Shown here piece after piece: positions 3,609 through 22,377 of a DNA stretch of 22,382 nucleotides. The stretch spans positions 1 through 22,382 of IMG/VR virus record IMGVR_UViG_3300021376_002702; one strand, written 5' to 3'. Position numbers and translations under genes: made by a program. Below the pieces are notes generated by a model. The model did no database searches, had not been told where the DNA came from, and saw nothing but the letters and a program-made list of their open reading frames with translations. Source of the DNA: a virus. How positions within the stretch are numbered: position 1 is the stretch's first letter; every line of letters begins with the position of its first letter.

Positions 3609-3617
3609 TGATATAAT
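3609..3617 (+). promoter_or_regulatory. Extended -10 promoter
   Basis: TGATATAAT at 3609-3617 is an extended -10 element with no clear -35 box. It lies 29 bases before the GTG at 3646 and would give a ~20-base leader containing AAAGGA at 3634-3639. Confidence 0.5.
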
Positions 3618-3645
3618 TAGGTGTAATGCAGAAAGGAAAAATATT

Positions 3646-3879
3646 GTGGAATCAAAAAAAAGAAGTTCTGTAAAATCGTTTAGTTTTGTAATATTTCATG
3701 TCACTGTTGCAACATTAATATTTTCTGCAGCAGTATATGCAATTACTGGTGAATGGGAATATGAATATTTTAAACCCCTTAGTCTGGCATTTTTAACATA
3801 CTTGGGCTGGGAAATTATTTCATATTACTGGCATGAAAGACTTTGGAACATTATCCCTAAATTGAGGAGGTTTAAATAA
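3646..3879 (+). CDS. DUF2061-like small membrane protein
   Basis: I choose the GTG at 3646, preceded by AAAGGA, over an upstream ATG at 3586 that would put the promoter inside the gene. The product is 77 aa. It has a basic N-terminus (ESKKRSSVKS), a hydrophobic segment FVIFHVTVATLIFSAAVYA, a polar loop, and a second segment ending in the signature-like SYYWHERLWN. That ending closely matches YYFHERVWN in the DUF2061 protein at 7162-7377, so the two are probably divergent paralogues. DUF2061 is a two-helix membrane family of unknown function. The gene's stop overlaps the next start (TAATG). Confidence 0.65.
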   Translation: MESKKRSSVKSFSFVIFHVTVATLIFSAAVYAITGEWEYEYFKPLSLAFLTYLGWEIISYYWHERLWNIIPKLRRFK

Positions 3880-4175: not shown

Positions 4176-4412
4176 ATGTTTAGTATGCTAAAGAATAAAG
4201 AAGAGGTTAGTCAAAATTGGAAGTTGTCTGCTTTAGATAGGTGCGATAGATGCGGGGCTGAGGCTCTTGTCAAAGTTAATGGGCTAAACGGAGATTTATT
4301 CTTTTGTGGACATCACTATAATAAAATTATGGATAATGCTGTAGGCTATGATAAAATGATGAAGTTTGTTATTTCGATTATTGATGAACGAGAAAAACTT
4401 GTTCAGCAATGA
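4176..4412 (+). CDS. DUF7455-like zinc-binding protein
   Basis: I place the start at the ATG at 4176 (MFSMLKNKEE), 6 bases after AAAGG, rather than at 4134 inside the preceding gene. The 78 aa product contains LSALDRCDRCGAEALVKV and then LFFCGHH. This C-x2-C...C-x-H-H arrangement is the actinobacterial DUF7455 signature and probably one zinc site. A helical tail follows. The family is essentially actinobacterial, so this gene is host evidence. Function is unknown; a transcription-linked role is often suspected. Its stop overlaps the next start (ATGA). Confidence 0.75.
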   Translation: MFSMLKNKEEVSQNWKLSALDRCDRCGAEALVKVNGLNGDLFFCGHHYNKIMDNAVGYDKMMKFVISIIDEREKLVQQ

Positions 4413-5239
4413 ACATTCATTACATGCTAACGGAATCCAGACTTCCCCTTGATGCGCTTTCTCATTACCTAGAAGATTGCAGATATAAATCAGTTTTGTT
4501 AACCTTTCATTCACAACAACCAGACTATTTTGTAAAGTCTGCTGCTTCTCTTGTCCCTGGCCATAAACTAAAATATATGATTGCACTAAGACCATATCAT
4601 GTAAGCCCTCAGTATCTTTCAATGATGACTAAAGCATATAATGAGATAGACAGAAATAGACTTGTAATTAATTGGATTGCTGGTGATTTTCACAATAGAC
4701 CAGATGAGCCCAATATAGAATTAGATGTTTTTTTAGAATCAGAATTAATAGACACTATACAAAAAAGAACTACATTTTTAAGAAATTTTGTAAAAATGTA
4801 CAAATTTTATTGTCCAGTTTCTGAAATACCACCTATGGTTTTTAGCGGATACTCTGATTACACCTTAGAAACTACAAAAATGTATGAGGGAACATCGCTA
4901 TGTATGTTGGACACATACAGAGAGAATATAAAAAAGTTTGACGGAATTGAAAAGAAAATGGTGAGCGCAAATGTTACAATCTTAGAATCAAACAAAGAGA
5001 TTGAAGAATATAAAGAAAAGGTTGTTCCTGTTAATCCTAGACGCACAAACTTTTCAATTATTGGAGATTATCAAACAGTTAAACAAAAAATAATTAATTT
5101 AAAGGATGAAGAAATAACTGATTTACTATTGTTTACTAATACAGACATTTTAGATTCAGACTGGAACGAAGGAAATGATCTGAGAGTAAATAAACTTATT
5201 AAAGAAATAAATATTGAGGCTGCACAAAATGATAGTTAG
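4409..5239 (+). CDS. Luciferase-like / SsuD-like (LLM family) protein 1
   Basis: This 276 aa protein starts in an ATGA overlap. Residues about 55-91 (KYMIALRPYHVSPQYLSMM, then IDRNRLVINWIAG) match the strand-helix-strand found in alkanesulfonate monooxygenase SsuD and related LLM flavin enzymes, where AxRPGxxSP and GRLxxNxxxG bind flavin and substrate. The family forms a TIM barrel using reduced FMN. The protein is shorter than SsuD (~380 aa) and the usual RGD-like start of the SsuD family is not obvious, so activity is uncertain. It opens the sulfur/halogen operon. If active, it could release sulfite from organosulfonates or oxygenate a substrate. A paralogue lies at 11861-12742. Confidence 0.65.
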   Translation: MNIHYMLTESRLPLDALSHYLEDCRYKSVLLTFHSQQPDYFVKSAASLVPGHKLKYMIALRPYHVSPQYLSMMTKAYNEIDRNRLVINWIAGDFHNRPDEPNIELDVFLESELIDTIQKRTTFLRNFVKMYKFYCPVSEIPPMVFSGYSDYTLETTKMYEGTSLCMLDTYRENIKKFDGIEKKMVSANVTILESNKEIEEYKEKVVPVNPRRTNFSIIGDYQTVKQKIINLKDEEITDLLLFTNTDILDSDWNEGNDLRVNKLIKEINIEAAQNDS

Positions 5240-5813
5240 AGATAAAGAGTATAGTTCAGTATTATTTGTTCACATACCAAAAACTGCTGGATCTTCTATA
5301 TCAAAAATACTTTATGATAATAATTTAGATAACTGGAATAGAGTATGGCCAAGACACCACGATCCCTATTCATATTTAAAAGAGGCAAACGTAATAGATA
5401 GTTCTGTATTTTCTTTTGCTGTTGTGAGAAACCCATACACAAGAACATATAGTTGCTATGGACAATATAATAAGACAAACAAAACCAACATATCTTTTAT
5501 TGAATATCTTGAAAACATAAAACAAAATAAAATATCTCTTGCAAGCCCATTACTACATTTGCCACAATCTTTTTATATAATTGACGGTCAGCAGGCCCAG
5601 GTTGATAAAATATATAAATTTGAAAACTTAAAAGAACTTGAGAATGATTTTGGGTGGACTCTCGGCTTTTACAATGTAGGTAGTTATGTGATACAATCAT
5701 ATATAAAAGACTACACAGAAGAGGCAATAGGTATGACGCAGCATCTTTATAATTCTGACTTTGCAAATTTTGGCTACTCAAAAGATTTTAGCACAACTTT
5801 GGAGTCAAAATGA
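5229..5813 (+). CDS. Sulfotransferase 1
   Basis: The start is taken at ATG 5229, overlapping the previous gene by 11 bases; the product is 194 aa. Residues 15-23, HIPKTAGSS, form the 5'-phosphosulfate-binding loop. Residues 65-75, VVRNPYTRTYS, form the 3'-phosphate-binding segment. Both are diagnostic of cytosolic/Golgi-type PAPS sulfotransferases (Sulfotransfer_2-like). The enzyme should move sulfate from PAPS to a hydroxyl or amine of a glycan, peptide or small molecule. The next but one gene encodes an APS-kinase-like protein that could supply PAPS. No signal peptide or membrane segment is seen, so it should be cytoplasmic. Its stop overlaps the next start (ATGA). Confidence 0.85.
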   Translation: MIVRDKEYSSVLFVHIPKTAGSSISKILYDNNLDNWNRVWPRHHDPYSYLKEANVIDSSVFSFAVVRNPYTRTYSCYGQYNKTNKTNISFIEYLENIKQNKISLASPLLHLPQSFYIIDGQQAQVDKIYKFENLKELENDFGWTLGFYNVGSYVIQSYIKDYTEEAIGMTQHLYNSDFANFGYSKDFSTTLESK

Positions 5814-6373
5814 GAAAAACATTAGAAGAATTTAATTTTAAAAAATATCAGAATTATAGTGTTGATGAAATAAAAGAATATATAGATGGCTTTTCTGATG
5901 AGTGGTTTATAAATACATCAAGACAAGACAACTATTATGTACACAAAGACACAACCTCATACTTTGTATATACCGCCGACCTTCAATGGAAAGAGGGAAC
6001 AAGTTTTGTTGTCAATAAAACATCAAACAACGCTGGACTATTAAAACTTCTTGAGCCAATAATTTTAGATTTGGAAAAACTTCATAATGGAACTAGGGGT
6101 ATGGTTCTTTTAATTAAACTAAAGGCAGGACACAATATTGCTGCTCACCATGACTCAGGAGACTATTTGATGATATCAAGAAGACACCACATACCAATAG
6201 TTACAACCGAAAATGTGTTTTTTGGTGTTGGCTCTGATACCGTTAGTATGCAGACTGGAGAATGCTGGGAGATAAATAATTCAAGAACTCACTTTGTAAA
6301 TAACACTAGCAAGATAGACAGAGTTCATTTACTCATTGATATAATGCCAAACGAAGAGATTAGAACAAAATGA
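5810..6373 (+). CDS. Aspartyl/asparaginyl beta-hydroxylase-like 2OG-Fe(II) enzyme
   Basis: This 187 aa protein starts in an ATGA overlap. The C-terminal two thirds match the Asp/Arg hydroxylase cupin fold. Likely iron ligands are His113 and Asp115 (AHHDSG) and His161 (RTHFVNN). RRHHIPI at 124-130 and Arg171 (DRVHLLID) fit the substrate/2-oxoglutarate-binding strands. Such enzymes hydroxylate Asp, Asn or other residues using oxygen and 2-oxoglutarate. In this operon it may hydroxylate the same target that is sulfated; hydroxylation could create the acceptor group. It ends in an ATGA overlap with the APS-kinase gene. Confidence 0.75.
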   Translation: MRKTLEEFNFKKYQNYSVDEIKEYIDGFSDEWFINTSRQDNYYVHKDTTSYFVYTADLQWKEGTSFVVNKTSNNAGLLKLLEPIILDLEKLHNGTRGMVLLIKLKAGHNIAAHHDSGDYLMISRRHHIPIVTTENVFFGVGSDTVSMQTGECWEINNSRTHFVNNTSKIDRVHLLIDIMPNEEIRTK

Positions 6374-7128
6374 TTATACAGATTATAGGCTTACCTGGAT
6401 CTGGTAAGACTGCATTAGCAACGGCACTTAGGGAAAGAATTAATGCCATACATCTTAATGCCGATGAAGTAAGGTCTACGGTTAATTCTGATCTTGGCTT
6501 TACCGCCGAAGATAGGATTGAGCAGGCTCGTCGCATGGGAGAGATGGCAAGGTTAATTGCAAATCAAGGGGTCGCTCCTGTTATTGTTGACTTTGTTTGT
6601 CCTACCAAAGAAACCAGAGAAGCCTTTGGTCCAGCAGATGTTATTGTTTGGGTAGACAGAATTAAGCAGGGTAGGTTTGAAGATACAAATAAAATGTGGC
6701 AAGATCCAGAAAAATTTGATATTAGAATTCTAGATGGATACACATTAAAACAAGAGGCAGATACTGTTATACAGGTGGGTGCATTGTTTGATTGGTCTGC
6801 TCCAACCACATTACAGTTAGGTAGGTATCAGCCTTGGCATGAAGGACATCAGGCCCTCAAAGAAGAGGCTCATAAAAGAACTAATCAAGTTCTAGTTGGC
6901 GTTCGCAACACATACAATACATCAGAAAAAGATCCATTAAAATATCATGAGGTTGCAACATATATTCAGCAAGATAATACATTTAAGAACACATTAATAT
7001 TAAGACTGCCCAACATTACTAACATTGTTTATGGTCGTGATGTAGGGTATAAGATTGAGCAGGTAGATTTGGGGGCAGACATTCATGCTATATCGGCTAC
7101 GCAAAAACGTAAAGAAATGGGTATCTAA
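6370..7128 (+). CDS. APS-kinase domain fused to HxGH nucleotidyltransferase
   Basis: This is a 252 aa two-domain protein. Residues 1-~135 are an APS-kinase/AAA-like P-loop kinase: Walker A GLPGSGKT (7-14), LNADEVR (29-35) and DLGFTAEDRIEQARR (41-55), close to the APS-kinase motif with LGFS-x-x-DR. Residues ~148-252 are a nucleotidyltransferase with GRYQPWHEGH (151-160) carrying the HxGH signature, VYGRDVG (220-226) and ISATQKR (241-247), equivalent to the ISxTxxR motif. ATP sulfurylase also uses HxGH and a GRDxxG motif, so a mini PAPS synthase making APS then PAPS is possible. The GRYQPWHxGH wording also resembles NMN adenylyltransferase (NadM/NadR). It sits in the same operon as a sulfotransferase. 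Confidence 0.75.
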   Translation: MIIQIIGLPGSGKTALATALRERINAIHLNADEVRSTVNSDLGFTAEDRIEQARRMGEMARLIANQGVAPVIVDFVCPTKETREAFGPADVIVWVDRIKQGRFEDTNKMWQDPEKFDIRILDGYTLKQEADTVIQVGALFDWSAPTTLQLGRYQPWHEGHQALKEEAHKRTNQVLVGVRNTYNTSEKDPLKYHEVATYIQQDNTFKNTLILRLPNITNIVYGRDVGYKIEQVDLGADIHAISATQKRKEMGI

Positions 7129-7137
7129 GTTGTTAGA

Positions 7138-7143
7138 TATAAT
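7138..7143 (+). promoter_or_regulatory. Possible -10 box before the DUF2061/halogenase pair
   Basis: TATAAT at 7138-7143 lies in the 33-base gap after the APS-kinase fusion, with no convincing -35. It could add expression of the DUF2061 and halogenase genes. An ATG 6 bases later opens only a three-codon reading frame (M-I-N-stop). Confidence 0.35.
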
Positions 7144-7161
7144 AGGTAATGATAAACTAGA

Positions 7162-7377
7162 GTGGCCTTCATGAAGGTAACTAAGACAAGATCTTTTGTT
7201 AAAGCACTAAGTTATCGCATATGGGCAACTTTTTTTACACTTATTATTGCATACCTTGTGACCAAAAATGCTACAATATCTATAACAATTGCGCTTGGGG
7301 AAATGATAAGTAAAATATTTATATATTATTTTCATGAGCGTGTTTGGAATTACATACAGTGGGGAAGGAAGTCATGA
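7162..7377 (+). CDS. DUF2061 membrane protein
   Basis: This protein is 71 aa from GTG 7162, or 68 aa from ATG 7171; neither has a strong ribosome-binding site. The family hallmark is clear: RSFVKALSYRIWATFFT, a hydrophobic strand into LIIAYLVT, then a second membrane helix ending in YYFHERVWNYIQWG. DUF2061 proteins are predicted two-helix inner-membrane proteins of unknown function. Here the gene lies between an APS-kinase-like gene and a halogenase, and the stop overlaps the halogenase start (ATGA). A possible role in transport or membrane anchoring of the sulfur pathway is inference. Confidence 0.75.
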   Translation: MAFMKVTKTRSFVKALSYRIWATFFTLIIAYLVTKNATISITIALGEMISKIFIYYFHERVWNYIQWGRKS

Positions 7378-8918
7378 TTAAAAGTGTTGTCGTTGTTGGT
7401 GGCGGTACTGCAGGATGGCTAACTGCTCTTAAGGCTAAAAAATCATATCCAGAATTAGACATAACTGTTATAGAATCAACTGACATAGGAATTTTGGGAG
7501 CAGGCGAAGGATCTACCCCCTACCTGACAGACTTTTTTGATCATTTGGACATACCATTATCAGATTTAATAAAAAATTGTGACGCAACAATTAAAAATGG
7601 AATCAAGTTTACAAACTGGAATAATGATGGAGAATTTTATTATCATGGGTTTTCCCAGACAGATAAATCACTTGGTTTTGATGTTTTGTTTGGTAAGTAT
7701 ATTTCCAATAGTCCATTAATTTTAGCAAGTATTGCATTAAACAATAGTGTAAAACAGATTGATTTTACCGAAAAAATTTCAGAAGCAAAAAAAGTTCCAT
7801 TTGTGTTAGACAGTAGCAAAACAAGTTTTGGTTTTGTTGCTGACAAAGACCCTATTTTTAATTATAAGAAAGTAGGAAATATCTCTATACATTTTAATGC
7901 TACAAAATTGGCAAATAGATTAAAAGAAATAGGTCTTAAGAGAGGCATTAATTTAATAGACGAAACAATAAAAAATGTTTTACTAGACGAAAAAAAATAT
8001 GTAAATGGATTAGTGTTGGGCAATAACAATACAGTACGGTGTGATTTTGTTTTTGATTGTAGTGGTTTTCATAGATTAATAATCGGAAAAGTATATGATG
8101 CAAAGTGGAAAAGTTATAAGGACTTTTTACCAGTCGACTCTGCTGTTCCATTTTTTATTGAAATGGCTGACAAGATTCCATCTTACACTGAGGCAATTGC
8201 TATGAAATATGGGTGGATGTGGAAAATACCATTACAAACACGCTTTGGGTGCGGATATGTTTATGACTCGTCTTTGATAACCGAACAACAGGCAGTAGAA
8301 GAGATAGAGGAATTTTTGGGATATGAGCCAACTTATCCTAGGAAAGACAAAGGTGGTTTTAAGTTTAGTGCTGGATGCTACGAAACCCCTTGGATCAATA
8401 ATTGTGTAGCAGTTGGTTTGGCAGCAAACTTTGTTGAGCCACTAGAAGCAACTTCAATTTGGGTAAGTATTGTAGAGTTGACTAAAATATTTGATAATCC
8501 ATTGTGGATCTTTGCTAATTCTGAAGCGGTAAGAGAAGAATTTAATAACAATATAGTTGACATGAACAATAATATTTCTGAGTTTATATATTTTCATTAT
8601 ATGACCTTGAGAGATGATACTGAGTTTTGGAAAAAGTTTTCATACAACAATGCTCCCCAAACTTTAAAACAAAAAATTGACATGTGGAAGCATAGGCTTC
8701 CCAGTAGGTCTGACTCAGGAGAGCACTGGTCCTCTAATAGTTGGGCATTTGTTGGGTCTGCACAAGAGACAATTAACAAGAGTATGGCCAAGGTTTATGT
8801 GGAAAATTCTATAGATTATAAAAAAGGTATAGAGATGTACGACTACTATAAAAGATATCAAGACTACAAATTGTTCGAGTGTGTTGATCATAGAGAATTT
8901 TTGAATGGGTTAAAATGA
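7374..8918 (+). CDS. FAD-dependent tryptophan-halogenase-family enzyme
   Basis: The start at ATG 7374, after AAGGAAG, gives 514 aa. Rossmann FAD-binding motif GGGTAGW is at residues 9-15 and GEGSTPYL at 44-51. The conserved lysine that holds the chloramine or hypohalous species is Lys74 in ATIKNGIKFTNW. The signature WxWxIP is present as WMWKIP (281-286). FVEPLEATS (353-361) carries the conserved glutamate, Glu355. All key halogenase residues are therefore present, and the length fits (~510-540 aa). It needs FADH2 from a separate reductase, not seen here. Substrate may be Trp, indole or phenol groups, free or in a larger molecule. A cyanophage halogenase (VirX1) is the known viral precedent. 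Confidence 0.88.
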   Translation: MIKSVVVVGGGTAGWLTALKAKKSYPELDITVIESTDIGILGAGEGSTPYLTDFFDHLDIPLSDLIKNCDATIKNGIKFTNWNNDGEFYYHGFSQTDKSLGFDVLFGKYISNSPLILASIALNNSVKQIDFTEKISEAKKVPFVLDSSKTSFGFVADKDPIFNYKKVGNISIHFNATKLANRLKEIGLKRGINLIDETIKNVLLDEKKYVNGLVLGNNNTVRCDFVFDCSGFHRLIIGKVYDAKWKSYKDFLPVDSAVPFFIEMADKIPSYTEAIAMKYGWMWKIPLQTRFGCGYVYDSSLITEQQAVEEIEEFLGYEPTYPRKDKGGFKFSAGCYETPWINNCVAVGLAANFVEPLEATSIWVSIVELTKIFDNPLWIFANSEAVREEFNNNIVDMNNNISEFIYFHYMTLRDDTEFWKKFSYNNAPQTLKQKIDMWKHRLPSRSDSGEHWSSNSWAFVGSAQETINKSMAKVYVENSIDYKKGIEMYDYYKRYQDYKLFECVDHREFLNGLK

Positions 8919-9199
8919 AATTTAAAACAGAATGGATAAGAGCCCTAAAAACTATGGGGCACAAGAAGTATTGGAATAAGCCTAATACTGTTGAATTTTT
9001 TGCTTTTATGACAAAAATATTAATTATATTTCCAGGACTGTTGCTTGGAAAACAATGGTGGTGGCTTTACATTTTTGCGCTGATGTCAAGTTTAGCATTA
9101 ATCTGGTCTTCAACAATTAAAACATTGCCAACCATTATATGGTTTAATATCCTGTGGACAATTCTTGCTACAAGTGCTATAATAAAGTATTGGGTATAG
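8915..9199 (+). CDS. Small three-helix membrane protein, unknown
   Basis: This 94 aa protein starts in an ATGA overlap with the halogenase gene. A basic N-terminus (KFKTEWIRALKTMGHKKYW) is followed by three hydrophobic segments at roughly residues 28-45, 47-63 and 70-90, rich in tryptophan. I do not recognise the family. The tight coupling suggests it works with the halogenase, for example as a membrane partner or transporter for substrate or product, which is inference. Confidence 0.65.
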   Translation: MKFKTEWIRALKTMGHKKYWNKPNTVEFFAFMTKILIIFPGLLLGKQWWWLYIFALMSSLALIWSSTIKTLPTIIWFNILWTILATSAIIKYWV

Positions 9200-9211
9200 A
9201 GGGAGAAAATT

Positions 9212-9619
9212 ATGTACGAATACTATGTAAAAAAAGTAGAGAATGTAGTAGATGGAGATACCATTGACGTTCTTATTGATTTAGGGTTTGATATTTTGTT
9301 TTCATCTCGTGTCAGACTTGCTGGTATTGATACCCCTGAATCTCGCACAAAAGACCTTAAAGAAAAGGCTTTGGGTCTTGAATCTAAAGAGTATTTAAAA
9401 AAGTTTTTGAAGGATCCTAAGTCGGTTGTGATTAAAACTGAAAAGATGAATTCTTCTGAAAAGTATGGTCGTATTTTAGGTTGGTTATATGTTAATGGCG
9501 ACACAGTTTCAGTCAATGATCATATGATTAATGATGGATATGCATGGGGATATCTTGGAGATACCAAGGTAAAAGACTTTGATGCCTTAGCAAAGGCTAG
9601 AAAGAAATCTGGCAAATGA
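9212..9619 (+). CDS. Thermonuclease (SNase-like nuclease)
   Basis: This 135 aa protein follows GGGAG. It keeps every catalytic element of staphylococcal nuclease: VVDGDTI (12-18), VRLAGIDTPE with Arg35, Asp40 and Glu43, and EKYGR with Arg87. By chance of length the numbering equals that of the S. aureus mature enzyme. It should cleave DNA and RNA with calcium, giving 3'-phosphates. There is no signal peptide, so unlike secreted relatives it probably acts in the cytoplasm, for example on host nucleic acid. The stop overlaps the following start (ATGA). Confidence 0.88.
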   Translation: MYEYYVKKVENVVDGDTIDVLIDLGFDILFSSRVRLAGIDTPESRTKDLKEKALGLESKEYLKKFLKDPKSVVIKTEKMNSSEKYGRILGWLYVNGDTVSVNDHMINDGYAWGYLGDTKVKDFDALAKARKKSGK

Positions 9620-9942
9620 GCGCAAGTGAAATATTTGATAAATTAGTTTTGACTGGTGGGTTAAGGTTTGCAGGTAAAGATCCTGAAACAGGTCAAAACA
9701 TGTATATCAAAACAGAAATGTTAAAAGACATAGATCCCAAACTTGATTTTGCACTTGGAAAATATTTTTCAGAAATGATTATGAGTCTGTGGGAAAAGGG
9801 TTTTATAGATATGGATGTAACAGAGGCCAACCCTATCGTAAACCTTAGCGAAAAATGTTTTGATGTTGACCAGACTAAGTCTTTGGATGCAAACGAAAGG
9901 TCTGCTCTTAAACAATTAATAAAAAGTCTTTTTTATAAATAA
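9616..9942 (+). CDS. Conserved-looking hypothetical protein
   Basis: This 108 aa soluble protein starts in an ATGA overlap with the nuclease gene. It has a helical N-terminus (SASEIFDKLVLTGGLRFAGKD), an acidic middle and a lysine-rich end (ALKQLIKSLFYK). No domain is recognised. Coupling to the thermonuclease gene may mean it controls or assists the nuclease, but nothing in the sequence proves this. Confidence 0.6.
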   Translation: MSASEIFDKLVLTGGLRFAGKDPETGQNMYIKTEMLKDIDPKLDFALGKYFSEMIMSLWEKGFIDMDVTEANPIVNLSEKCFDVDQTKSLDANERSALKQLIKSLFYK

Positions 9943-9969
9943 TGATAGAATAGGTTTAGGGGGCCACCA

Positions 9970-10386
9970 ATGAACGATGCTTTTGGAGCAGTCTTATTGA
10001 CAGGGGTTATGTTGCTGTCTATATTTTTTTATTTTTTTCGGGTGCGAACAAGAAGAGTCCATAGACAAATTGTCAGTCAGTCTATGCTACACCACAGATA
10101 TTCTAGTGGTAAAAAATATAAAAGAAGGCTTAAGCCAAGGACTCAGTCTGTAAAGCATCAAGAGGGTTCTGAGACAAAGGTTATCGTTGTAGACAATGAG
10201 GCATACTGGATTAAAAATAACACATTTTATAAAGCCCCCCTTTTTGATCACAAAATTGACAAAGACTCTGCAGAAAAAGTTGACACAACTAACATGGATA
10301 AGGTACAATTAGATAAGATGTTGTTTATAGTAGACAAACTAACAGAAGGGACAAGTGATGATAGTAGGGGTTCAGGGAACGCCTAA
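9970..10386 (+). CDS. Single-pass membrane protein with basic cytoplasmic part
   Basis: This 138 aa protein has an N-terminal membrane segment at about residues 5-24 (VLLTGVMLLSIFFYFF) followed by a very basic stretch (RVRTRRVHRQ, KKYKRRLKPR) that should stay inside by the positive-inside rule. A short beta-like segment KVIVVDNEAYWIKNNTFYKAP follows, and a helical acidic end. The GGGGG-rich spacer before the ATG at 9970 may serve as a weak ribosome-binding site. No family is recognised. It overlaps the next gene at its 3' end. Confidence 0.6.
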   Translation: MNDAFGAVLLTGVMLLSIFFYFFRVRTRRVHRQIVSQSMLHHRYSSGKKYKRRLKPRTQSVKHQEGSETKVIVVDNEAYWIKNNTFYKAPLFDHKIDKDSAEKVDTTNMDKVQLDKMLFIVDKLTEGTSDDSRGSGNA

Positions 10387-10708
10387 CTTCAATAACTACA
10401 ATATCTTTCTTAGAGCAATGGGCGTAGCCTTGTCAGAATTAAAACCAGAGGAAAAAGAGTTCAAACTTTATTCCGCTGGACCAAATAAAGTAAATGACAT
10501 GGCCATGGAATTTGTAAATCTTTCTGAAAGAGGTATGAGGTCTAGAGGAAAGTCCATAAAACTATTTAGGGTAACTCCTCAATGGCTTGAAGAAAATATT
10601 GATAATTGTGATCACTTTGTCTTTGTTTCTAATCCAAAAGAAAGAATGTCAAACTTAGTTAGTCTGTCAAAATCAAAAAATATTAATACAAACATATACA
10701 ACTTCTAA
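10358..10708 (+). CDS. SLOG/Rossmann-like nucleotide-binding candidate
   Basis: The start is chosen at ATG 10358, 7 bases after AAGGG, giving 116 aa; a GTG at 10355 is possible. The protein begins MIVGVQGTPNFNNYNIFLRAMGVAL, then FKLYSAGPNKVNDMAMEFV and a C-terminal DHFVFVSNPKERMSNLV. The layout of a glycine-containing first strand, a second strand with a Ser-Ala-Gly-Pro turn and a late FVFV strand recalls SLOG/DUF2493-type Rossmannoid folds, which bind nucleotides or derivatives. That call is from fold pattern only. It overlaps the previous gene by 29 bases. Confidence 0.5.
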   Translation: MIVGVQGTPNFNNYNIFLRAMGVALSELKPEEKEFKLYSAGPNKVNDMAMEFVNLSERGMRSRGKSIKLFRVTPQWLEENIDNCDHFVFVSNPKERMSNLVSLSKSKNINTNIYNF

Positions 10709-10718
10709 GGAGTATAAA

Positions 10719-10931
10719 ATGAAAACAGTAAATTCTCTTGAACAAATGGAGATAATCGTTTCCAAGAACAATAACTTGTCTTGGGATGGATGGAATGTTG
10801 TTGAAATGGTAAAGTCAGATAAGGCTTTAACATCAAGGTATGGCACAAGAATAGATGGTGCTTGGTACTTGAAAAAAATTTATGTCGTTTCTAGAAATGG
10901 ATGGGAAGTACCTGACAAGTATGTAGTATAA
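10719..10931 (+). CDS. Small conserved phage-type protein, unknown
   Basis: This 70 aa protein has AAGGAG at 10708-10713 close before the ATG. The core WDGWNVVEMVKS...GAWYLKKIYVVSRNGWEVPDKYV, with four tryptophans and a GW-x-(V/I)-P ending, resembles short proteins I associate with actinobacterial phages. It looks like a compact beta protein. Function is unknown. It lies 2 bases before the WhiB gene and may be co-regulated with it. Confidence 0.65.
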   Translation: MKTVNSLEQMEIIVSKNNNLSWDGWNVVEMVKSDKALTSRYGTRIDGAWYLKKIYVVSRNGWEVPDKYVV

Positions 10932-10933
10932 AA

Positions 10934-11215
10934 ATGAATAAGCATGAATGGAAAGACGATGCTGCATGCCTTGATTACGATACTAATGTATTTTTTGATA
11001 AATATGAAGAAGACGAGTTACTTAGGCCTGCCGTAGATCTCTTATGCTCTAAATGTTCAGTAAGGAAAGAATGTTTTGCTGTTGGAGTTTCTGGTAAAGA
11101 ATGGGGAGTTTGGGGTGGTGTATACTTAGAAGGTGGAGAAATATCAAAAGAATTTTCTAGTCATAAAACAAAGGATGACTGGGGAACAACTTGGCAGTCT
11201 CTTACAATGGAGTAA
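10934..11215 (+). CDS. WhiB-family iron-sulfur transcription regulator
   Basis: This 93 aa protein has the four cysteines of the WhiB [4Fe-4S] cluster: Cys12 in DDAACLD, Cys38 and Cys41 in CSKC, and Cys47 in RKECFA. The G[V/I]WGG turn follows at 58-62. WhiB proteins are found only in Actinobacteria and their phages; they bind the housekeeping sigma factor and sense redox or NO. Phage versions can block or redirect host WhiB genes. The tail after the turn is acidic to neutral (SHKTKDDWGTTW) and lacks the usual basic AT-hook-like motif, so it may act through sigma binding or as a competitor rather than by DNA contact. Confidence 0.9.
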   Translation: MNKHEWKDDAACLDYDTNVFFDKYEEDELLRPAVDLLCSKCSVRKECFAVGVSGKEWGVWGGVYLEGGEISKEFSSHKTKDDWGTTWQSLTME

Positions 11216-11216
11216 T

Positions 11217-11456
11217 ATGTATACAGACGCAATGAAAAAAGCATTTAGATCAATTTCTGGTCCTAAAAATTTTTCTTTACAAATTATAGACAATGATCAT
11301 TTTTTAACAGTCAAGGCCAGAGAAAAAGATTTTATGTCTTTAGAAACTGTAGAGATGAAAAGAGAGGCTATAGAGTATATGGTTCGTGTTAAAAAGGCTT
11401 TGGAAGATAATGGTGCTACAGTACTTTTAGTTAGAGAGGGTGGAAAAGGGTTATGA
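11217..11456 (+). CDS. Small hypothetical protein
   Basis: The start is taken at ATG 11217 after GGAG at 11209-11212, not the in-frame ATG at 11133 inside the WhiB gene. The 79 aa product is MYTDAMKKAFRSIS, a central beta-like FSLQIIDNDHFLTVKA, then a long charged helix ending in GATVLLVREGGKGL. It could be a small alpha/beta protein. No family is recognised. It overlaps the next gene by four bases (ATGA). Confidence 0.6.
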   Translation: MYTDAMKKAFRSISGPKNFSLQIIDNDHFLTVKAREKDFMSLETVEMKREAIEYMVRVKKALEDNGATVLLVREGGKGL

Positions 11457-11854
11457 TAGAGTTAATTTTAATATTTTTCTTATCTTTGTTTGTCTCGTTT
11501 TTTTTGTTTCTTTACTTAAAAGAAAAGAAAAATGGCAAGATAATCATAGCAAACACTTTAAAACTTTTATTGCATCAAGAAGAACAGTTTAAGGCAAAGA
11601 AAACAGATAAAGAAAGAGCAAATGAAGATTTTTTAAAATTTGTTTCAGACTCTCGTGATTTGGCATATGAATATATCGAGTCTGTTCAAACTGGACTACA
11701 AAAATTTATTGATGAGGTTGAGCCCCAGATTGAATATTATGACAAATATGGTGTAGCAGTAGAGGGAATGCTTGTCCCGCATGATTTTGCTTTAAAGAAA
11801 ATATCTTCAGAGTTTAAAGAATTGAAAAAATTGCTTCCAAAAGATCCTGAGTAG
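11453..11854 (+). CDS. Membrane-anchored coiled-coil protein
   Basis: This 133 aa protein has an N-terminal membrane segment (about residues 2-23, ELILIFFLSLFVSFFLFLYL), a basic stop (KEKKNGK), then a long charged helical region (about 30-95) likely to form a coiled coil. A tyrosine-containing stretch EPQIEYYDKYG and a final helix follow. It should be anchored in the cytoplasmic membrane with its body inside. Function is unknown; such proteins serve in superinfection exclusion or envelope remodelling in some phages. Confidence 0.65.
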   Translation: MIELILIFFLSLFVSFFLFLYLKEKKNGKIIIANTLKLLLHQEEQFKAKKTDKERANEDFLKFVSDSRDLAYEYIESVQTGLQKFIDEVEPQIEYYDKYGVAVEGMLVPHDFALKKISSEFKELKKLLPKDPE

Positions 11855-11860
11855 AACTGT

Positions 11861-12742
11861 ATGATGAAGTTTTATTATTTTGGTGGAGTTATGGGGGATG
11901 CAGAAAATTTGAAATCTCCGTCAACTTTAAACAAGCATAATTTTTCTGGAGTAATGTTTACGCACGATATTCCAGAAGGAGACATGTTTATAAAGGCAGC
12001 AATAGATATAAAGCAGGGCGAGAATATTAAATACTTAGTGGCGATTCGTCCATATACAATATCCCCACAATATCTTTCTATGATAAATAGATCAATGGAT
12101 AAGATAGATCGTGGAAGGCTTCAGGTTAATTTGATTTGTGGATATATTAAAGACCATGAAAATGGTGTTGGTGGTGTTGTTGGAAACGTAAACGATACAT
12201 CAAGCAATGTTGACAGATCAAACTATATGATAGAATTTCTTAAAACGCTAAATGAAATGAATCAAGACAAGGAATCTCCAGGATATTGGCGTGATCCAAA
12301 CCACATAAACAAGTTAGATGTTTTTGTTTCAACAACAAATCATTATGTTTTTGAAACAGCAAAAAAATATGGACACAAAATTATCTTACCATATCACATA
12401 TATGCTCGTGGAGGCTGGTCTGATTTTTTAAAAGGTCCTTCTGTATCAGTTCCACTCGACTTAGATGGTATGGAAATAATGTTAGCAATTACTCCAATTA
12501 TCAGAAAAACAGAAGAAGAACTTAATTTATTAACTAATCATGTGGTTAGACCAGTATGGAAAAAGGGAGAACTCCCACAGCCCGTTCTTGATGCTGCATA
12601 CTTTACTCACGAGCAATTTGATGATCTTGTAAGGACCCTTGAAAGCAGAGGAATAAACCATATGCTTATCAATGCTGTTCCATCAGAAGAAGTAGAAGTA
12701 ATAGTTCCTTTTATAAAACAGTATACAGAGTCTAGAAAATGA
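11861..12742 (+). CDS. Luciferase-like / SsuD-like (LLM family) protein 2
   Basis: This 293 aa protein starts at ATG 11861 or 11864. Residues 57-94 (KYLVAIRPYTISPQYLSMI, then IDRGRLQVNLICG) align closely with the protein at 4409-5239 and with the SsuD-type AxRPG-x-x-SP and GRLxxN motifs. IDRGRL keeps the canonical glycine that paralogue 1 has lost (IDRNRL). The C-terminal part contains an aromatic YWRDPN and an LDVFVSTTNHYVFETAKKYG segment with a beta-barrel feel. A flavin monooxygenase role is plausible but unproven. The two copies flank the metabolic operon and its downstream unknowns. Confidence 0.65.
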   Translation: MMKFYYFGGVMGDAENLKSPSTLNKHNFSGVMFTHDIPEGDMFIKAAIDIKQGENIKYLVAIRPYTISPQYLSMINRSMDKIDRGRLQVNLICGYIKDHENGVGGVVGNVNDTSSNVDRSNYMIEFLKTLNEMNQDKESPGYWRDPNHINKLDVFVSTTNHYVFETAKKYGHKIILPYHIYARGGWSDFLKGPSVSVPLDLDGMEIMLAITPIIRKTEEELNLLTNHVVRPVWKKGELPQPVLDAAYFTHEQFDDLVRTLESRGINHMLINAVPSEEVEVIVPFIKQYTESRK

Positions 12743-12748
12743 GGGTGG

Positions 12749-12754
12749 TATAAT
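12749..12754 (+). promoter_or_regulatory. -10 box with leaderless GTG micro-ORF
   Basis: TATAAT at 12749-12754 ends 7 bases before a GTG at 12761, the same spacing as at the other leaderless starts. There is no clear -35 box. Confidence 0.5.
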
Positions 12755-12760
12755 TGGATT

Positions 12761-12823
12761 GTGGCTTGCTCAACCAATTTGGGTGGCCATTGTGAAGTTC
12801 ATATCCTAGGAGGAATAAAATGA
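12761..12823 (+). CDS. Possible 20-aa leader peptide
   Basis: A GTG placed at the predicted transcription start opens a 20-codon frame whose TGA overlaps the next ATG (ATGA at 12820). The peptide has two cysteines and two histidines (VACSTNLGGHCEVHILGGIK). Both edges fit a translated leader that couples to the holin-like gene, whose own AGGAGG at 12808-12813 lies inside this frame. It may also simply be the untranslated leader. Confidence is low because short frames arise by chance. Confidence 0.35.
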   Translation: MACSTNLGGHCEVHILGGIK

Positions 12824-13125
12824 ATGAAAAACAAATCAAGGCAGCACTAGCGTCATACGGAAGATCAATTCTTGGAGCAGCAACAGCGTTGTATGCTTCT
12901 GGAGTAACTGATCCACAGACGCTTGCATACTCACTGCTTGGTGCACTTGTACCAGTTGTATTGAGAGCAGCAAATCCAAACGACACAGCGTTTGGTCGCC
13001 TACCATCTGTAAAAGATGTAGACGCTGCAGTTAAGTCTGCAAAGATTGTGAATAGGCCTGCAAAGAAGGCTCCAGCAAAGAAGAAGAAGTCTGGCGGTGG
13101 CGGAAGTCCACAGCAAGTACTTTAA
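12820..13125 (+). CDS. Holin-like membrane protein with basic tail
   Basis: This 101 aa protein has AGGAGG 6 bases before its ATG. Residues ~8-30 (ASYGRSILGAATALYASG) and ~36-52 (LAYSLLGALVPVVLRA) are two moderately hydrophobic helices. ANPNDTAFGR follows, and then a Lys/Ala/Pro tail of histone-like character (residues ~79-93). The SYGRS-x-LGAATALYA and NPNDxAFG wording is familiar from phage proteins often labelled holin. The basic tail may bind DNA, RNA or lipid headgroups. With the 854-1270 protein there are two holin candidates, and this one lies far from the endolysin. Confidence 0.6.
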   Translation: MNEKQIKAALASYGRSILGAATALYASGVTDPQTLAYSLLGALVPVVLRAANPNDTAFGRLPSVKDVDAAVKSAKIVNRPAKKAPAKKKKSGGGGSPQQVL

Positions 13126-13135
13126 AAATTAAAAT

Positions 13136-13174
13136 CATAATGGGGTATCGGGAATAATTCCGTGCCCCATTATG
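13136..13174 (+). terminator. Strong inverted repeat between holin-like gene and Hsp20
   Basis: CATAATGGGG (13136-13145) is perfectly repeated in reverse as CCCCATTATG (13165-13174). The interior (bases 13146-13164) can add further pairs, giving a stem of about 15 pairs. The downstream bases are only partly T-rich (TTTAATATACTG), so this may be a terminator or an RNA element in front of the hsp20 gene. Confidence 0.55.
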
Positions 13175-13179
13175 TTTAA

Positions 13180-13185
13180 TATACT
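13180..13185 (+). promoter_or_regulatory. Possible -10 box for hsp20
   Basis: TATACT at 13180-13185 directly follows the hairpin. No good -35 is seen; the hairpin arm occupies that place. AAGGAGG near 13227-13233 is the ribosome-binding site for the ATG at 13238. Confidence 0.4.
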
Positions 13186-13237
13186 GTACCTGCTCAATGG
13201 GGGGTACAAATTGAACTCGCTTAACAAGGAGGAAATA

Positions 13238-13657
13238 ATGGTAAGTTCATGGTCATTGGATCTTTTTAAGGATCCATTTTTTATTGGTTTCAACAGAGAG
13301 TTGGACCGCTTCTATAATATCCATCGTGAGGCAACTCGTCAATCTTATCCACCATATGATGTGGTAAAAATCGATGAGGATACTTACAAACTATCTTTGG
13401 CTATTGCTGGATTCAGCAAAGATGAGGTAGGGGTTTCTGTGGATAATGGAAGTCTTATTGTAAAGGGTGAGAAAACCGAAGAGGACGCAAACAATGTCCT
13501 ACATAAGGGTATCGCAACTCGCAAATTCACACGCACCTTTGCTCTTGGAGAGTATATGGAGGTTGATCGTGCTGAAATGGCAGACGGTATTCTTAGCGTC
13601 TTTGTGGAAAGAAACGTTCCCGAAGCAAAGAAGCCTAAAACAATCAAAATAAAGTAG
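13238..13657 (+). CDS. Hsp20 small heat-shock protein (IbpA type)
   Basis: The start at ATG 13238 follows AAGGAGG; an upstream in-frame ATG at 13172 overlaps the hairpin and is rejected. The product is 139 aa. The N-terminal DPFFIGFNRELDRF resembles IbpA (DPLxxxxxGFDRxF). The alpha-crystallin domain spans about residues 38-128, from YPPYDVVKIDEDTYKLSLAIAGF through LIVKGEK to DGILSVFVERN. The C-terminal I-x-I motif (IKI, 136-138) lets dimers assemble into oligomers. It holds unfolding proteins without ATP. Phage Hsp20 genes are common in cyanophages and may protect capsid or scaffold assembly. Confidence 0.92.
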   Translation: MVSSWSLDLFKDPFFIGFNRELDRFYNIHREATRQSYPPYDVVKIDEDTYKLSLAIAGFSKDEVGVSVDNGSLIVKGEKTEEDANNVLHKGIATRKFTRTFALGEYMEVDRAEMADGILSVFVERNVPEAKKPKTIKIK

Positions 13658-13753
13658 TATAATATAAGACATTCCGTCATGATACATGCAGTTGCTATTG
13701 GCAACCTTATTGCTGAGTACGGATAAACCCAGGATCGTAACTTGGGGCGACCT

Positions 13754-13774
13754 GAGCAAGTCTATAAACTGCTC
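13754..13774 (+). terminator. Small hairpin before the RH-VDKKG gene
   Basis: GAGC-A-AGT pairs with ACT-GCTC around the loop CTATAA (7 pairs, one bulged A), followed by TATTTCTAT. It may end hsp20 transcription before the next promoter. The rest of 13658-13797 shows a TATAAT at 13658-13663 and a 15-codon frame at 13679, but no confident gene. Confidence 0.4.
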
Positions 13775-13782
13775 TATTTCTA

Positions 13783-13791
13783 TGCTATAAT
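13783..13791 (+). promoter_or_regulatory. Extended -10 promoter, leaderless start
   Basis: TGCTATAAT at 13783-13791 is a perfect extended -10. Its last T lies 7 bases before the ATG at 13798, and no ribosome-binding site exists, so the mRNA should begin at the start codon. Confidence 0.7.
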
Positions 13792-13797
13792 AGTTGT

Positions 13798-14589
13798 ATG
13801 ACAAATTCAGATTGCTGTCCAGAAGAACTAGAGAAAAAGGCCCCTTGCTGGGAGGGCTATGTAATGCGTGGCATGAAACCTGGAAGTGGTGGACGCATGG
13901 TTCCTAATTGCGTACCTGCTAAAAAAGCAGACGACCTTTGGGAAGATGACGATACAGTTGAGTATGATACAGACTCTGTATCTAAGGCAGAAGGATACTC
14001 ACCACCAGCAGGTGCAAGATCTGCTGCTCGTAAAGCAATTAAGTTTAAAGAAGATGGTAAAGCAAAAGGTGCAGGAACTTCAGTTGGCTGGACTCGTGCA
14101 GGACAATTGGCAAGAGGAGAAACTCTATCTCTTAGTACTGTAAAGAGAATGTATTCATATTTCTCACGCCATGAGGTAGACAAAAAAGGTAAAGACTGGG
14201 GCAACTCAGCAAATCCATCAAATGGTTATATCATGTGGTTGGCATGGGGTGGAGATGCAGGATTCTCTTGGTCAAGAGGAATTGTTAATCGTGAAAAAGA
14301 TAAAGCACTATTTGCTGACTTTGGAAAAACAAATAACAAAGTAACACAACTTACTGAAATATTTAAAGGTATTGGCGTTGGATCTATGGTGTCTTGGAAT
14401 TCTTCTGGCGGTAGAGCAGAAGGCAAGATAACAAGAATTATTACTAATGGTAAGTATAAAGTTCCAGGAGCAGATGTAACCGTTAGTGGTACTAAAGAAG
14501 ATCCCGCAGCAGTCATTAGATTGTATCGTGATGGAAAGCCTACAGACACAATTGTTGCACATAAATTAAAAACATTAAAGGCTAAGTAA
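13798..14589 (+). CDS. Phage protein with RH-VDKKG domain and Hva1/Tudor-like C-terminus
   Basis: This 263 aa protein has three parts. Residues 1-40 contain four cysteines (CC, PCWEGY, PNCVP) and an MKPGSGGRMVPNCVP turn. Residues ~69-160 form a conserved domain (PPAGARSAARKAIKFKE, STVKRMYSYFSRHEVDKKG, PSNGYIMWLAWGGDAGFSW) that I know from phage head and protease proteins, with uncertain function. Residues ~193-260 (GIGVGSMVSWNSSGGRAEGKI ... HKLKTL) look like the Hva1/DUF2945 Tudor-type barrel. It is leaderless, from an extended -10 promoter. No capsid genes are near, so it may be an accessory or DNA-associated protein rather than structural. Confidence 0.7.
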   Translation: MTNSDCCPEELEKKAPCWEGYVMRGMKPGSGGRMVPNCVPAKKADDLWEDDDTVEYDTDSVSKAEGYSPPAGARSAARKAIKFKEDGKAKGAGTSVGWTRAGQLARGETLSLSTVKRMYSYFSRHEVDKKGKDWGNSANPSNGYIMWLAWGGDAGFSWSRGIVNREKDKALFADFGKTNNKVTQLTEIFKGIGVGSMVSWNSSGGRAEGKITRIITNGKYKVPGADVTVSGTKEDPAAVIRLYRDGKPTDTIVAHKLKTLKAK

Positions 14590-14732
14590 TGTCTTCTGGG
14601 CAGTATAGTCCTCATCGTAAATTTAACCCAATACAGATCAAGGGTGGCAATGTTGTTCGCCTTCGCAAAGATGGCACAATAAAAGCAGTCCTTGGCAAGT
14701 ATGGAGAATACAACAAAACAAAGAAGTCTTGA
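14589..14732 (+). CDS. 47-aa basic protein, unknown
   Basis: ATG at 14589 overlaps the preceding stop (TAATG), and its TGA overlaps the next ATG (TGATG). The product is basic, MSSGQYSPHRKFNPIQIKGGNVVRLRKD..., ending in NKTKKS, with a probable beta-hairpin around GGNVVRLRKDGTIKAVLG. The overlaps on both sides support translation. No family is recognised. Confidence 0.65.
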   Translation: MSSGQYSPHRKFNPIQIKGGNVVRLRKDGTIKAVLGKYGEYNKTKKS

Positions 14733-15472
14733 TGTTAAAATATAACAAAGTTTATTTTTTACACATACCAAAAACTGGCGGTAGATTTTTAACAAAGTAC
14801 ATACTTAGGCCAATGGAGGAAACTCTATCTAAGCATGGTATTGAATACCTTAGAATGCCAGAAGACATGCGGCAACATGCTGGTTGGCCATTTTTTATAG
14901 ATGATGAGACATATGTTATATCAGTATTTAGAGAGCCTTGTCAGTTTTTTGTTAGTGCTGTATGTCATGCAGCAGCAGGTAGAGCAGAACTAATAGACAA
15001 AGAAGATTGGCATGTTATAAGGGGAGAAAATCTTGTTGTTGAAAAAGAAGAACTTTTTGAAAAGTTAAATACTTGGTACTACATCAAAGATTTTCAATCT
15101 CATAATTTTTCTTTAAGTCCAGATCCAGCAGCAATGTCTGTTATTAAAGAAGCACAATTTTTTTATGATGAAAAAAAAGAATATGACAAGGGTTTAATAT
15201 ATGATAGAATAAAGAGAACTAATCTTTTTATTAGAACCAATGAATTAAAGTCAATGGACTATGGTTTGTTGATTAAAAAAATATCAGATGATTTGGGAAT
15301 TGAAATAACTGCAGATTTATCAGAGATTAATAGAACACATTTTAAAAATGATGCTTCAGAAAAACTATTTAATTCTTTAAGTCAGAGCGAAAAAAATATG
15401 ATAATTGAAAACTTTCCATTAGATAAAGAAATATACGATAATGATTCTTTATTTTGGAATCCTACTCGTTAG
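14732..15472 (+). CDS. Sulfotransferase 2
   Basis: The start is ATG 14732 in a TGATG overlap, giving 246 aa. HIPKTGGRFLTKY near residue 11 is the 5'-phosphosulfate loop and VISVFREPCQFFVS near residue 62 the 3'-phosphate segment of PAPS sulfotransferases. The rest is helical and charged. It differs strongly from the one at 5229-5813, so a different acceptor is likely. It is the last plus-strand gene before the strand switch, and its 3' end overlaps the minus-strand gene 15462-15620 by 11 bases. It shares the PAPS need with sulfotransferase 1 and thus may depend on the APS-kinase fusion. Confidence 0.82.
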   Translation: MLKYNKVYFLHIPKTGGRFLTKYILRPMEETLSKHGIEYLRMPEDMRQHAGWPFFIDDETYVISVFREPCQFFVSAVCHAAAGRAELIDKEDWHVIRGENLVVEKEELFEKLNTWYYIKDFQSHNFSLSPDPAAMSVIKEAQFFYDEKKEYDKGLIYDRIKRTNLFIRTNELKSMDYGLLIKKISDDLGIEITADLSEINRTHFKNDASEKLFNSLSQSEKNMIIENFPLDKEIYDNDSLFWNPTR

Positions 15473-15622: not shown

Positions 15623-16681
15623 TTAGTTGCCCATTGGATAGCCAATTTTATTTTTTACTTTACTTAGAGAGTCTTTGTCTGTTGTTCCCCAGTATCCAAA
15701 ATACTTTCCAGATATTATTTGTTGAAAATTTATTTCAGAGTTAGTTATTTTTGTGTGTAGGTAGTCTGACCCAACCTTATTTGCTTTATGTGTCTTCCAG
15801 TTGTGGCTTTCTCCTAATAAAACAGATACATGTTCTTTAAAATCTTTATCTATATAGATTTGATTTAAAACAGCAATGGTCGGATACTTAGGACTAAAAA
15901 TTTTATAGCCCCTGCTTAAGAGCCTAATAGAATAGTTTGTTTGATCTCCATGGTAATGATCCTCTGGATCATGAAGAACCTCTCTATTTAGTTTTGCTTT
16001 AGAAAACATAAAAGTTCCATGGACTCCGTTTGATTCTTCGTATTCTTTTTTATCTATATAGCAGTCGCCATAAACTATTGGAAAACCTAACTGATCTTCA
16101 ACAAAATTTTCACCTTGTTTTCCATCATAAACAAATTTAAGTTTTGTCATGCCTCTGTTTACTAATTCTTTAGCATTTTTTTCTAAATTTAAGGGATCTA
16201 TTTCAAGTGCTGTTTTGTTATCTTTGTCAATGATATAAAATTTTTCAGGATTTTCATCGTAGTAAGTCCAGATAAATCCACTTGACGCAGAAAGAATTAA
16301 CTTATTTTCATTAATATTTTCTTGTTCTTTAATTTTATTAAAAATATTTATTAGTTGAGTATCCCATTTTTTGCTAAAAAATGTATGAGCATCTATCTGA
16401 AACATGTAGTCAAATTCTTTAAATTGCAACAAGGAGGCGTTCATTCTTCCAAAACCAGTACCCATTGGTGCTGGAGTTATTAGTTCAACATAAAAAATTT
16501 GATTATTATTTAATAAAAAATCATTATCTAGTAAAGAGTGTTCTTTTTTTAGTATGTTATTAAATATACCAAAATAAATTTTGTTTGGATTTTCGGCGTT
16601 AAACAAGGCACTTTTTACAGTCTGCTCTATAAACCTTTCTTCACATGCTGCTATAGGTATAAAAATTGAATCTTTAATCAC
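15623..16681 (-). CDS. GlcNAc-transferase-like glycosyltransferase (polypeptide GlcNAcT / Skp1-type)
   Basis: This 352 aa protein starts with GTG at 16681. AGGAGG for this start is the acceptor strand of the adjacent tRNA-Thr fragment, 5 bases upstream. The N-terminus IFIPIAACEERFIEQTVKSALFNAENPNKIYFGIF and MFQIDAHTFFSKKWD (Asp97/His99) match the GlcNAc family that includes Skp1 GlcNAc-transferase; the D-x-H/D pair binds the metal and nucleotide sugar. A late HGDQTNYSIRLLSRGY segment is typical of the acceptor lobe. It probably adds a sugar to a protein hydroxyl, perhaps hydroxyproline as in Skp1, which is notable given the prolyl-hydroxylase-like genes nearby. Confidence 0.75.
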   Translation of the reverse strand: MIKDSIFIPIAACEERFIEQTVKSALFNAENPNKIYFGIFNNILKKEHSLLDNDFLLNNNQIFYVELITPAPMGTGFGRMNASLLQFKEFDYMFQIDAHTFFSKKWDTQLINIFNKIKEQENINENKLILSASSGFIWTYYDENPEKFYIIDKDNKTALEIDPLNLEKNAKELVNRGMTKLKFVYDGKQGENFVEDQLGFPIVYGDCYIDKKEYEESNGVHGTFMFSKAKLNREVLHDPEDHYHGDQTNYSIRLLSRGYKIFSPKYPTIAVLNQIYIDKDFKEHVSVLLGESHNWKTHKANKVGSDYLHTKITNSEINFQQIISGKYFGYWGTTDKDSLSKVKNKIGYPMGN

Positions 16682-16684
16682 TTG

Positions 16685-16731
16685 AGCCTCCTGTAGGATT
16701 TGAACCTACGACAACCCGCTTACAAGGCGGG
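16685..16731 (-). other. 3' half of a tRNA-Thr(TGT): attachment-site core or tRNA relic
   Basis: On the minus strand the order is anticodon stem-loop (CCCGC-CTTGTAA-GCGGG, 16715-16731, anticodon TGT), a 5-base variable loop, T arm (GTAGG-TTCAAAT-CCTAC, 16693-16709), acceptor strand AGGAGGC (16686-16692) and discriminator T at 16685. The 5' acceptor and D arm are missing; the bases there are the end of the TauD-like gene. Such a 3'-half match starting at the anticodon stem is the usual form of a phage attP that integrates into tRNA-Thr. No integrase lies in the window, so a decayed phage tRNA is also possible. Confidence 0.8.
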
Positions 16732-22360: not shown

Positions 22361-22368
22361 ATAATTCA

Positions 22369-22377
22369 ATTATAGCA
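22369..22377 (-). promoter_or_regulatory. Extended -10 promoter
   Basis: TGCTATAAT on the minus strand (22377-22369), an exact extended -10. Its last T is 9 bases before the ATG at 22360, so the transcript would have at most a 2-3-base leader. Confidence 0.6.

Follow-up and report, generated by a model that had tools for sequence, protein, structure and literature searches.

Can a virus carry its own supply of activated sulfate for sulfotransferases, and could that supply start from inorganic sulfate? The question is raised by a 22,382-base IMG/VR viral record, IMGVR_UViG_3300021376_002702 (the window, meaning the whole stretch analysed), whose source appears to be a lake virus infecting bacteria. 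At 6370-7128, the window encodes a fusion of an adenosine 5′-phosphosulfate (APS) kinase-like domain and a nucleotidyltransferase (NT) domain. A first-pass annotation had placed this fusion in one operon with a sulfotransferase, ST1, and had located a second sulfotransferase, ST2, at 14732-15472; open frames, profile matches and overlapping genes bear out this arrangement, and all genes named in that annotation are present in the window as open frames. We consider it likely that the fusion is a compact bifunctional synthetase of 3′-phosphoadenosine 5′-phosphosulfate (PAPS) that supplies PAPS for the ST1 and ST2 sulfotransferases. The features central to this proposal are the following:

5229-5813, plus strand: ST1, predicted PAPS-dependent sulfotransferase (Sulfotransfer_2), from Pfam and conserved motifs.
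6370-7128, plus strand: kinase-NT fusion of 252 residues, with the kinase in residues 1-143 and NT in residues 144-252.
6370-6798, plus strand: APS-kinase-like domain of the fusion, residues 1-143, from Pfam, the AlphaFold2 model and structural matches.
6799-7128, plus strand: NT domain of the fusion, residues 144-252, an HxGH-type nucleotidyltransferase and proposed compact ATP sulfurylase, from motifs and context.
14732-15472, plus strand: ST2, divergent predicted sulfotransferase, from PHROG 3347 and conserved motifs.

The kinase half matches Pfam APS_kinase (PF01583) over residues 2-85 (1.2e-16; 61.5 bits, above the gathering cut-off of 21.1), and the whole fusion matches PHROG 10255, 'kinase', over its full length (3.7e-63). 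The first-pass annotation had called this half an APS kinase and had proposed structure prediction as a check. An AlphaFold2 model of the fusion, built from 33 aligned relatives, reached a mean predicted local distance difference test (pLDDT) of 91 and agrees with that call: in the structural alignment of residues 1-143, each of the top 30 matches is an APS kinase or a PAPS synthetase (Z 16.6-18.7, identity 26-32%), many of them at 1.8-2.0 Å. The best match is the APS kinase 7yq0 (VIA Z 18.7), and the next family after the APS kinases is gluconate kinase, at Z 15.8. Additionally, D32, R35, F44 and R49 are invariant among the relatives and N39 is conserved in at least 90% of them; these residues align with the DxxR..N..F..R pattern of solved APS kinases, which we take to line their substrate site.

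For the NT half, which had been left unexplained, comparison makes the missing ATP sulfurylase the likeliest identity. Pfam CTP_transf_like matches fusion residues 151-187 (2.4e-4), and the motifs GRYQPWHEGH, YGRDVGYKIE and ISAT are strongly conserved among relatives. Modelled alone (pLDDT 89), the domain shows the fold of the phosphopantetheine/nicotinamide mononucleotide (NMN) adenylyltransferase type (phosphopantetheine adenylyltransferase, Z 11.1; NMN adenylyltransferase, Z 9.8), an HxGH nucleotidyltransferase fold that can accommodate ATP. The structural matches listed are enzymes of these two kinds; Sat is not among them, which excludes nothing, and even with E values up to 1 allowed, the fusion has no match to PF01747 (Sat). 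Since neither fold nor sequence gives a substrate, we read it from gene context.

The settings of the kinase-NT relatives described next all use APS or PAPS. In an OCS116 genome, NT forms one protein with a canonical APS kinase (L095; TIGR00455 cut-off 138.7, score 243 bits) that has the lid motif of the classical enzymes, and no CysD, Sat or over-cut-off CysN was found in that genome. One streamlined alphaproteobacterial family carries separate kinase and NT genes in five of six genomes, always after CysH and DUF2061; where the operon was read further out, its order is SirB/CbiX-like, CobA/CysG-like, CysI, CysH, DUF2061, kinase and NT, with CysH and CysI scoring over their cut-offs. Sat was not detected in four of the five genomes with this CysH-DUF2061-kinase-NT arrangement, over-cut-off CysD in none of the three tested, and over-cut-off CysN in none at all; of these, CysD is related to PAPS reductase, and CysN is a GTPase. 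CysH needs activated sulfate, and the operon holds no candidate activator other than the kinase-NT pair. The pair would thus supply the one sulfate-activating activity of an assimilation operon, in genomes that are incomplete and, in G148, with a Sat-like gene elsewhere.

Many SAR11 genomes have kinase and NT inside an aprM-aprB-aprA cluster; in L188, the identity of AprA and AprB was confirmed. APS is a product or a substrate of AprBA, and the NT of these clusters could be the missing SAR11 ATP sulfurylase. The split genes lie at L188:7312-12131 and likewise in L097, L164, L186, L195, L197 and L199, together with MetC-like, major facilitator superfamily and PqqC/TenA-like genes. Sulfotransferases adjoin or lie near further relatives in SAR116 (L092), in an exopolysaccharide-type cluster of an Asaia-labelled metagenome-assembled genome (L089), in SAR11 lipopolysaccharide clusters (L166, L167, L168) and in unrelated phage-like contigs (L093, L094, L100); their Pfam matches are 6.2e-6 or better, save that of L089 (1.3e-4, just below its cut-off). 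Because relatives of NT occur in CysIH operons, aprBA clusters, an APS-kinase fusion and sulfotransferase neighbourhoods, the domain is probably an ATP sulfurylase of small size that has gone unrecognised and whose sequence is akin to that of NMN adenylyltransferase. To our knowledge, there are two types of ATP sulfurylase. We lean towards the broader view that NT is a third, new type from the NMN-adenylyltransferase line, common across SAR11 and further streamlined bacteria. Many aquatic phages would carry it within a PAPS synthetase of 252 residues, which would draw on inorganic sulfate to supply the phage sulfotransferases.

Two further settings were observed. A pyruvate-kinase-like gene adjoins the Sat-like gene in G148 (L180:1480-2544) and the kinase-NT fusion in others (L110:533-1498; L111:507-1487), as if the Sat-like gene and the fusion replaced each other at this place. 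Another sulfur setting occurs in some SAR11 genomes (L175:4415-5788, L193, L194), where kinase-NT lies near a methanethiol-oxidase-like gene scoring 158 bits against a cut-off of 650.

On the transfer side, ST1 matches Pfam Sulfotransfer_2 over its gathering score (5.3e-7), and its motifs HIPKTAG, HxP (the histidine before Asp-Pro-Tyr) and VRNPYxR..S are found in 21 distinct relatives. ST2 matches PHROG 3347 (Galactose-3-O-sulfotransferase; 1.6e-4), with HIPKTGG, HxGW and SxFRxP..FVS invariant in 12 distinct relatives. These motifs presumably form the 5′-phosphosulfate (5′-PSB) and 3′-phosphate (3′-PB) loops, and on this basis ST1 is predicted to be a PAPS-dependent sulfotransferase.

More than 580 relatives of the fusion were found among viral stretches, and in the best 80 of them DUF2061 lies downstream of the fusion in 74. 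A sulfotransferase is present in the flank of 15 of 80 close relatives and within 6 kb in 51 of 80 fusion loci of Bacteroidetes-phage type. On contigs of the latter type, as at L230:3852-5624 and its counterparts among L228-L264, the sulfotransferase often makes up the N-terminal domain of a protein some 590 residues long. As a control, loci were collected via the halogenase; among those with 3.5 kb or more of upstream sequence, a sulfotransferase occurs in 33 of the 47 with the fusion and in 1 of the 13 without it (Fisher p 6.6e-5), a p-value that, like others of its kind, overstates independence because phage loci are related. Seen from the sulfotransferases, the fusion is within 6 kb of 29 of 31 ST1 relatives, one of the remaining two loci being cut short, and near ST2 relatives in all 12 loci with enough upstream sequence. 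The 2-oxoglutarate (2OG) hydroxylase is present in 36/36 halogenase/fusion loci with a sulfotransferase, against 3/21 without.

In the window, the genes from 4409 to 9199 follow the order LLM1 (a luciferase-like monooxygenase relative), ST1, an Asp/Asn-hydroxylase-like oxygenase, the kinase-NT fusion, DUF2061, the halogenase and a small membrane protein. The end of one gene and the start of the next fall at 5239/5229 for LLM1/ST1, 5813/5810 for ST1/hydroxylase, 6373/6370 for hydroxylase/fusion and 7377/7374 for DUF2061/halogenase. Since these genes overlap or abut, they probably form a single transcript. The remaining members of the operon and the second LLM-like gene are listed here:

4409-5239, plus strand: LLM1, luciferase-like monooxygenase relative overlapping ST1, with a partial SsuD-profile match.
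5810-6373, plus strand: aspartyl/asparaginyl-hydroxylase-like 2OG oxygenase (Pfam Asp_Arg_Hydrox, 2.8e-13).
7162-7377, plus strand: DUF2061 small membrane protein (Pfam, 4.4e-17).
7374-8918, plus strand: tryptophan-halogenase-family flavoprotein of the same operon (Pfam, 2.3e-100).
8915-9199, plus strand: small membrane protein without a family, overlapping the halogenase, from its open frame.
11861-12742, plus strand: LLM2, second LLM-like protein, given no place in the pathway, with a partial SsuD match.

DUF2061, which in the bacterial operons stands between CysH and the kinase, might be a partner in sulfate uptake or in anchoring. The family was also tried as a pointer to function across bacteria generally and set aside: at 30 loci its neighbours were mostly unrelated, with one near cysC, so only the DUF2061-kinase pairing is informative. 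The window holds two small membrane proteins of this type (3616-3879 and 7162-7377), one of which nearly always pairs with the fusion.

In the proposed pathway, the NT domain would adenylate sulfate (ATP + sulfate → APS + PPi) and the N-terminal APS-kinase-like domain would phosphorylate APS to PAPS; we infer these two steps, and sulfate as the NT substrate, from the observed kinase fold and motifs, the gene linkage and the contexts of the relatives. ST1 and ST2 would then place the sulfuryl group of PAPS on an acceptor. For ST1, this is probably a hydroxyl that the 2OG hydroxylase introduces into a product encoded by phage or host, since the hydroxylase gene is gained and lost together with ST1; no more than a working idea is that one product is first hydroxylated and then sulfated. 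The halogenase and the LLM proteins may tailor the same product too. As the adenylating half probably makes APS itself, the phage would hold a route from sulfate to a sulfated product. The central idea of the first-pass annotation, PAPS supplied by the phage to sulfotransferases, appears largely right and finds good support in the comparison; it was understated in that the NT half, as the likeliest ATP sulfurylase, would let the pathway start from inorganic sulfate. Its sulfite branch is not supported.

That branch had the two LLM/SsuD-like proteins free sulfite from organosulfonates and feed it into the pathway. LLM1 and LLM2 do give partial matches to the SsuD profile TIGR03565 (1.3e-6 and 27.7 bits; 4.9e-9 and 35.7 bits), but these span only about 70-80 residues and fall far under the cut-off of 518.2. 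Moreover, PAPS is made from sulfate and would draw on sulfite only through an APS reductase working in reverse, and AprBA did not appear among the window genes scanned. The LLM proteins were therefore rejected as a sulfite source, and we regard the full version of the earlier proposal as extremely improbable.

Several observations weigh against a PAPS synthetase serving sulfotransferases. In the kinase half, the score against the equivalog TIGR00455 (62.2 bits, over residues 2-85 only) misses the cut-off of 138.7, and the classical lid motif KGLYxxARxGxIxxFTGI is absent, with GRFEDTNKxxxxP in its place; for these reasons, we call this half APS-kinase-like by its modelled fold and place it outside the classical equivalog. 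The NT fold names no substrate, and its sequence profile is nearest to NMN adenylyltransferases (2qjt, 8.9e-12; 1f9a, 2.2e-9), not to Sat or CysD. Among the five alphaproteobacterial genomes, G148 does have a Sat-like gene, on a separate contig, and the missing-ATP-sulfurylase results are soft because the genomes are incomplete assemblies. ST2 has no Pfam match, and its assignment as a divergent sulfotransferase is less certain than that of ST1. Cyanophage-type fusion loci have a sulfotransferase in 0 of 36 by our own profiles and in none by Pfam. In 23 whole records chosen for having no adjacent sulfotransferase, 15 gave no Sulfotransfer_2 or Sulfotransfer_3 match at E up to 1e-3, while the other 8, including Stenotrophomonas phage DLP_6, have one somewhere. 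Two Casjensviridae isolates (L082, L084) carry a full-length relative of the fusion after a 444-bp gene, NADAR-domain-annotated in one of them, and no annotated sulfotransferase nearby; MazG-like and cysteine dioxygenase genes lie near these relatives. Fusion phages of this kind may rely on host sulfotransferases, have a family outside the search or use APS/PAPS differently. The annotation's idea of a phage PAPS supply for sulfotransferases keeps the strong co-occurrence of fusion and sulfotransferase on its side, and is weakened by the divergence of ST2 and by the many fusion phages with no sulfotransferase detected.

The NMN adenylyltransferase matches and the NADAR-annotated neighbour led us to consider a NadR-like enzyme of NAD salvage, in which the kinase would phosphorylate nicotinamide riboside, NT would adenylate NMN to NAD and the sulfotransferases would be independent. 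However, the likeness is confined to the N-terminal HxGH part of NT (profile positions up to about 77 of 115), the remainder with YGRxVGYKIE and ISAT is specific to the NT family, and there is no full-length match, the scores against NMN adenylyltransferase profiles being 17-36 bits against cut-offs of 127-449. The kinase, for its part, is APS-kinase-like, and the partners are CysH, CysI, AprBA, a canonical APS kinase and sulfotransferases; NAD salvage was rejected on this gene context and seems to us quite unlikely. An APS kinase joined to an NT that makes another nucleotide, or that runs only in reverse (making ATP from APS + PPi, as happens when sulfite is oxidised) while phages draw on host APS for PAPS, is also unlikely. 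The ATP sulfurylase reaction is reversible. The SAR11 pair lies beside AprBA, which is thought to act on sulfite and APS (PMC12636525), but the CysH/CysI operons need APS/PAPS from sulfate, and most such genomes show no other ATP sulfurylase. Finally, Campylobacter Cj1415, annotated CysC, is reported to act on a CDP-amidate, and the divergent kinase lid and second half of NT would also fit a pair that activates a different oxyanion or a phosphate ester, such as an amidate or phosphonate; the linkage to sulfate/PAPS enzymes in several unrelated settings makes this very unlikely.

A PAPS synthetase acting from sulfate would resemble human PAPSS1/2 and the bacterial Sat-CysC fusions in joining a sulfate-adenylating HxxH-type domain to an APS kinase, and the phage kinase matches their APS kinase domains structurally. 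It differs in having an NT of about 110 residues without the PF01747 signature, the kinase first and NT second, another lid, and 252 instead of about 600 residues. With NMN adenylyltransferases of the archaeal/NadM type, its nearest sequence relatives over the HxGH half, NT shares neither the second half (YGRxVGYKIE..ISAT) nor the context, which is sulfur metabolism and not NAD. With the ATP sulfurylases CysDN and Sat it would share the reaction, and kinase-NT holds the operon position for sulfate activation ahead of CysH, but it is a member of neither by sequence and has no PF01747 match. Sulfotransferases and cysC-like genes have been reported before among viral auxiliary genes (PMC8290583). 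The window has the same kinds of gene as the PHROG 3347 phage sulfotransferases and viral cysC genes, and differs in linking activation and transfer in one operon, with an adenylating domain. Our literature search found no paper on the kinase-NT pair, nor on such operon-linked activation and transfer.

A WhiB-family gene at 10934-11215 suggests an actinobacterial host, as whiB serves as an actinophage marker (PMC10202952; PMC6802176); no phage isolate with DNA close to the window was found. Other genes of the window, at 1950-2474, 10934-11215, 15623-16681, 16720-17526, 19684-20454 and 21683-22369, encode a proteasome-subunit-like protein, WhiB, a GlcNAc-type glycosyltransferase, and a TauD-like and two further 2OG oxygenases.

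A 2025 study of SAR11 described both the dissimilatory and the assimilatory sulfate-reduction pathways as incomplete in the core (PMC12636525). If the proposed function of NT is true, SAR11 sulfur maps would gain the sulfate-activating enzyme they lack, and a small ATP sulfurylase would be added to the known types. Phages would carry a whole sulfation route into the cell, which could be needed in streamlined freshwater bacteria because sulfate reduction genes are reported to be missing there (PMC11561045). The same reading predicts sulfated products in infected cells or virions.

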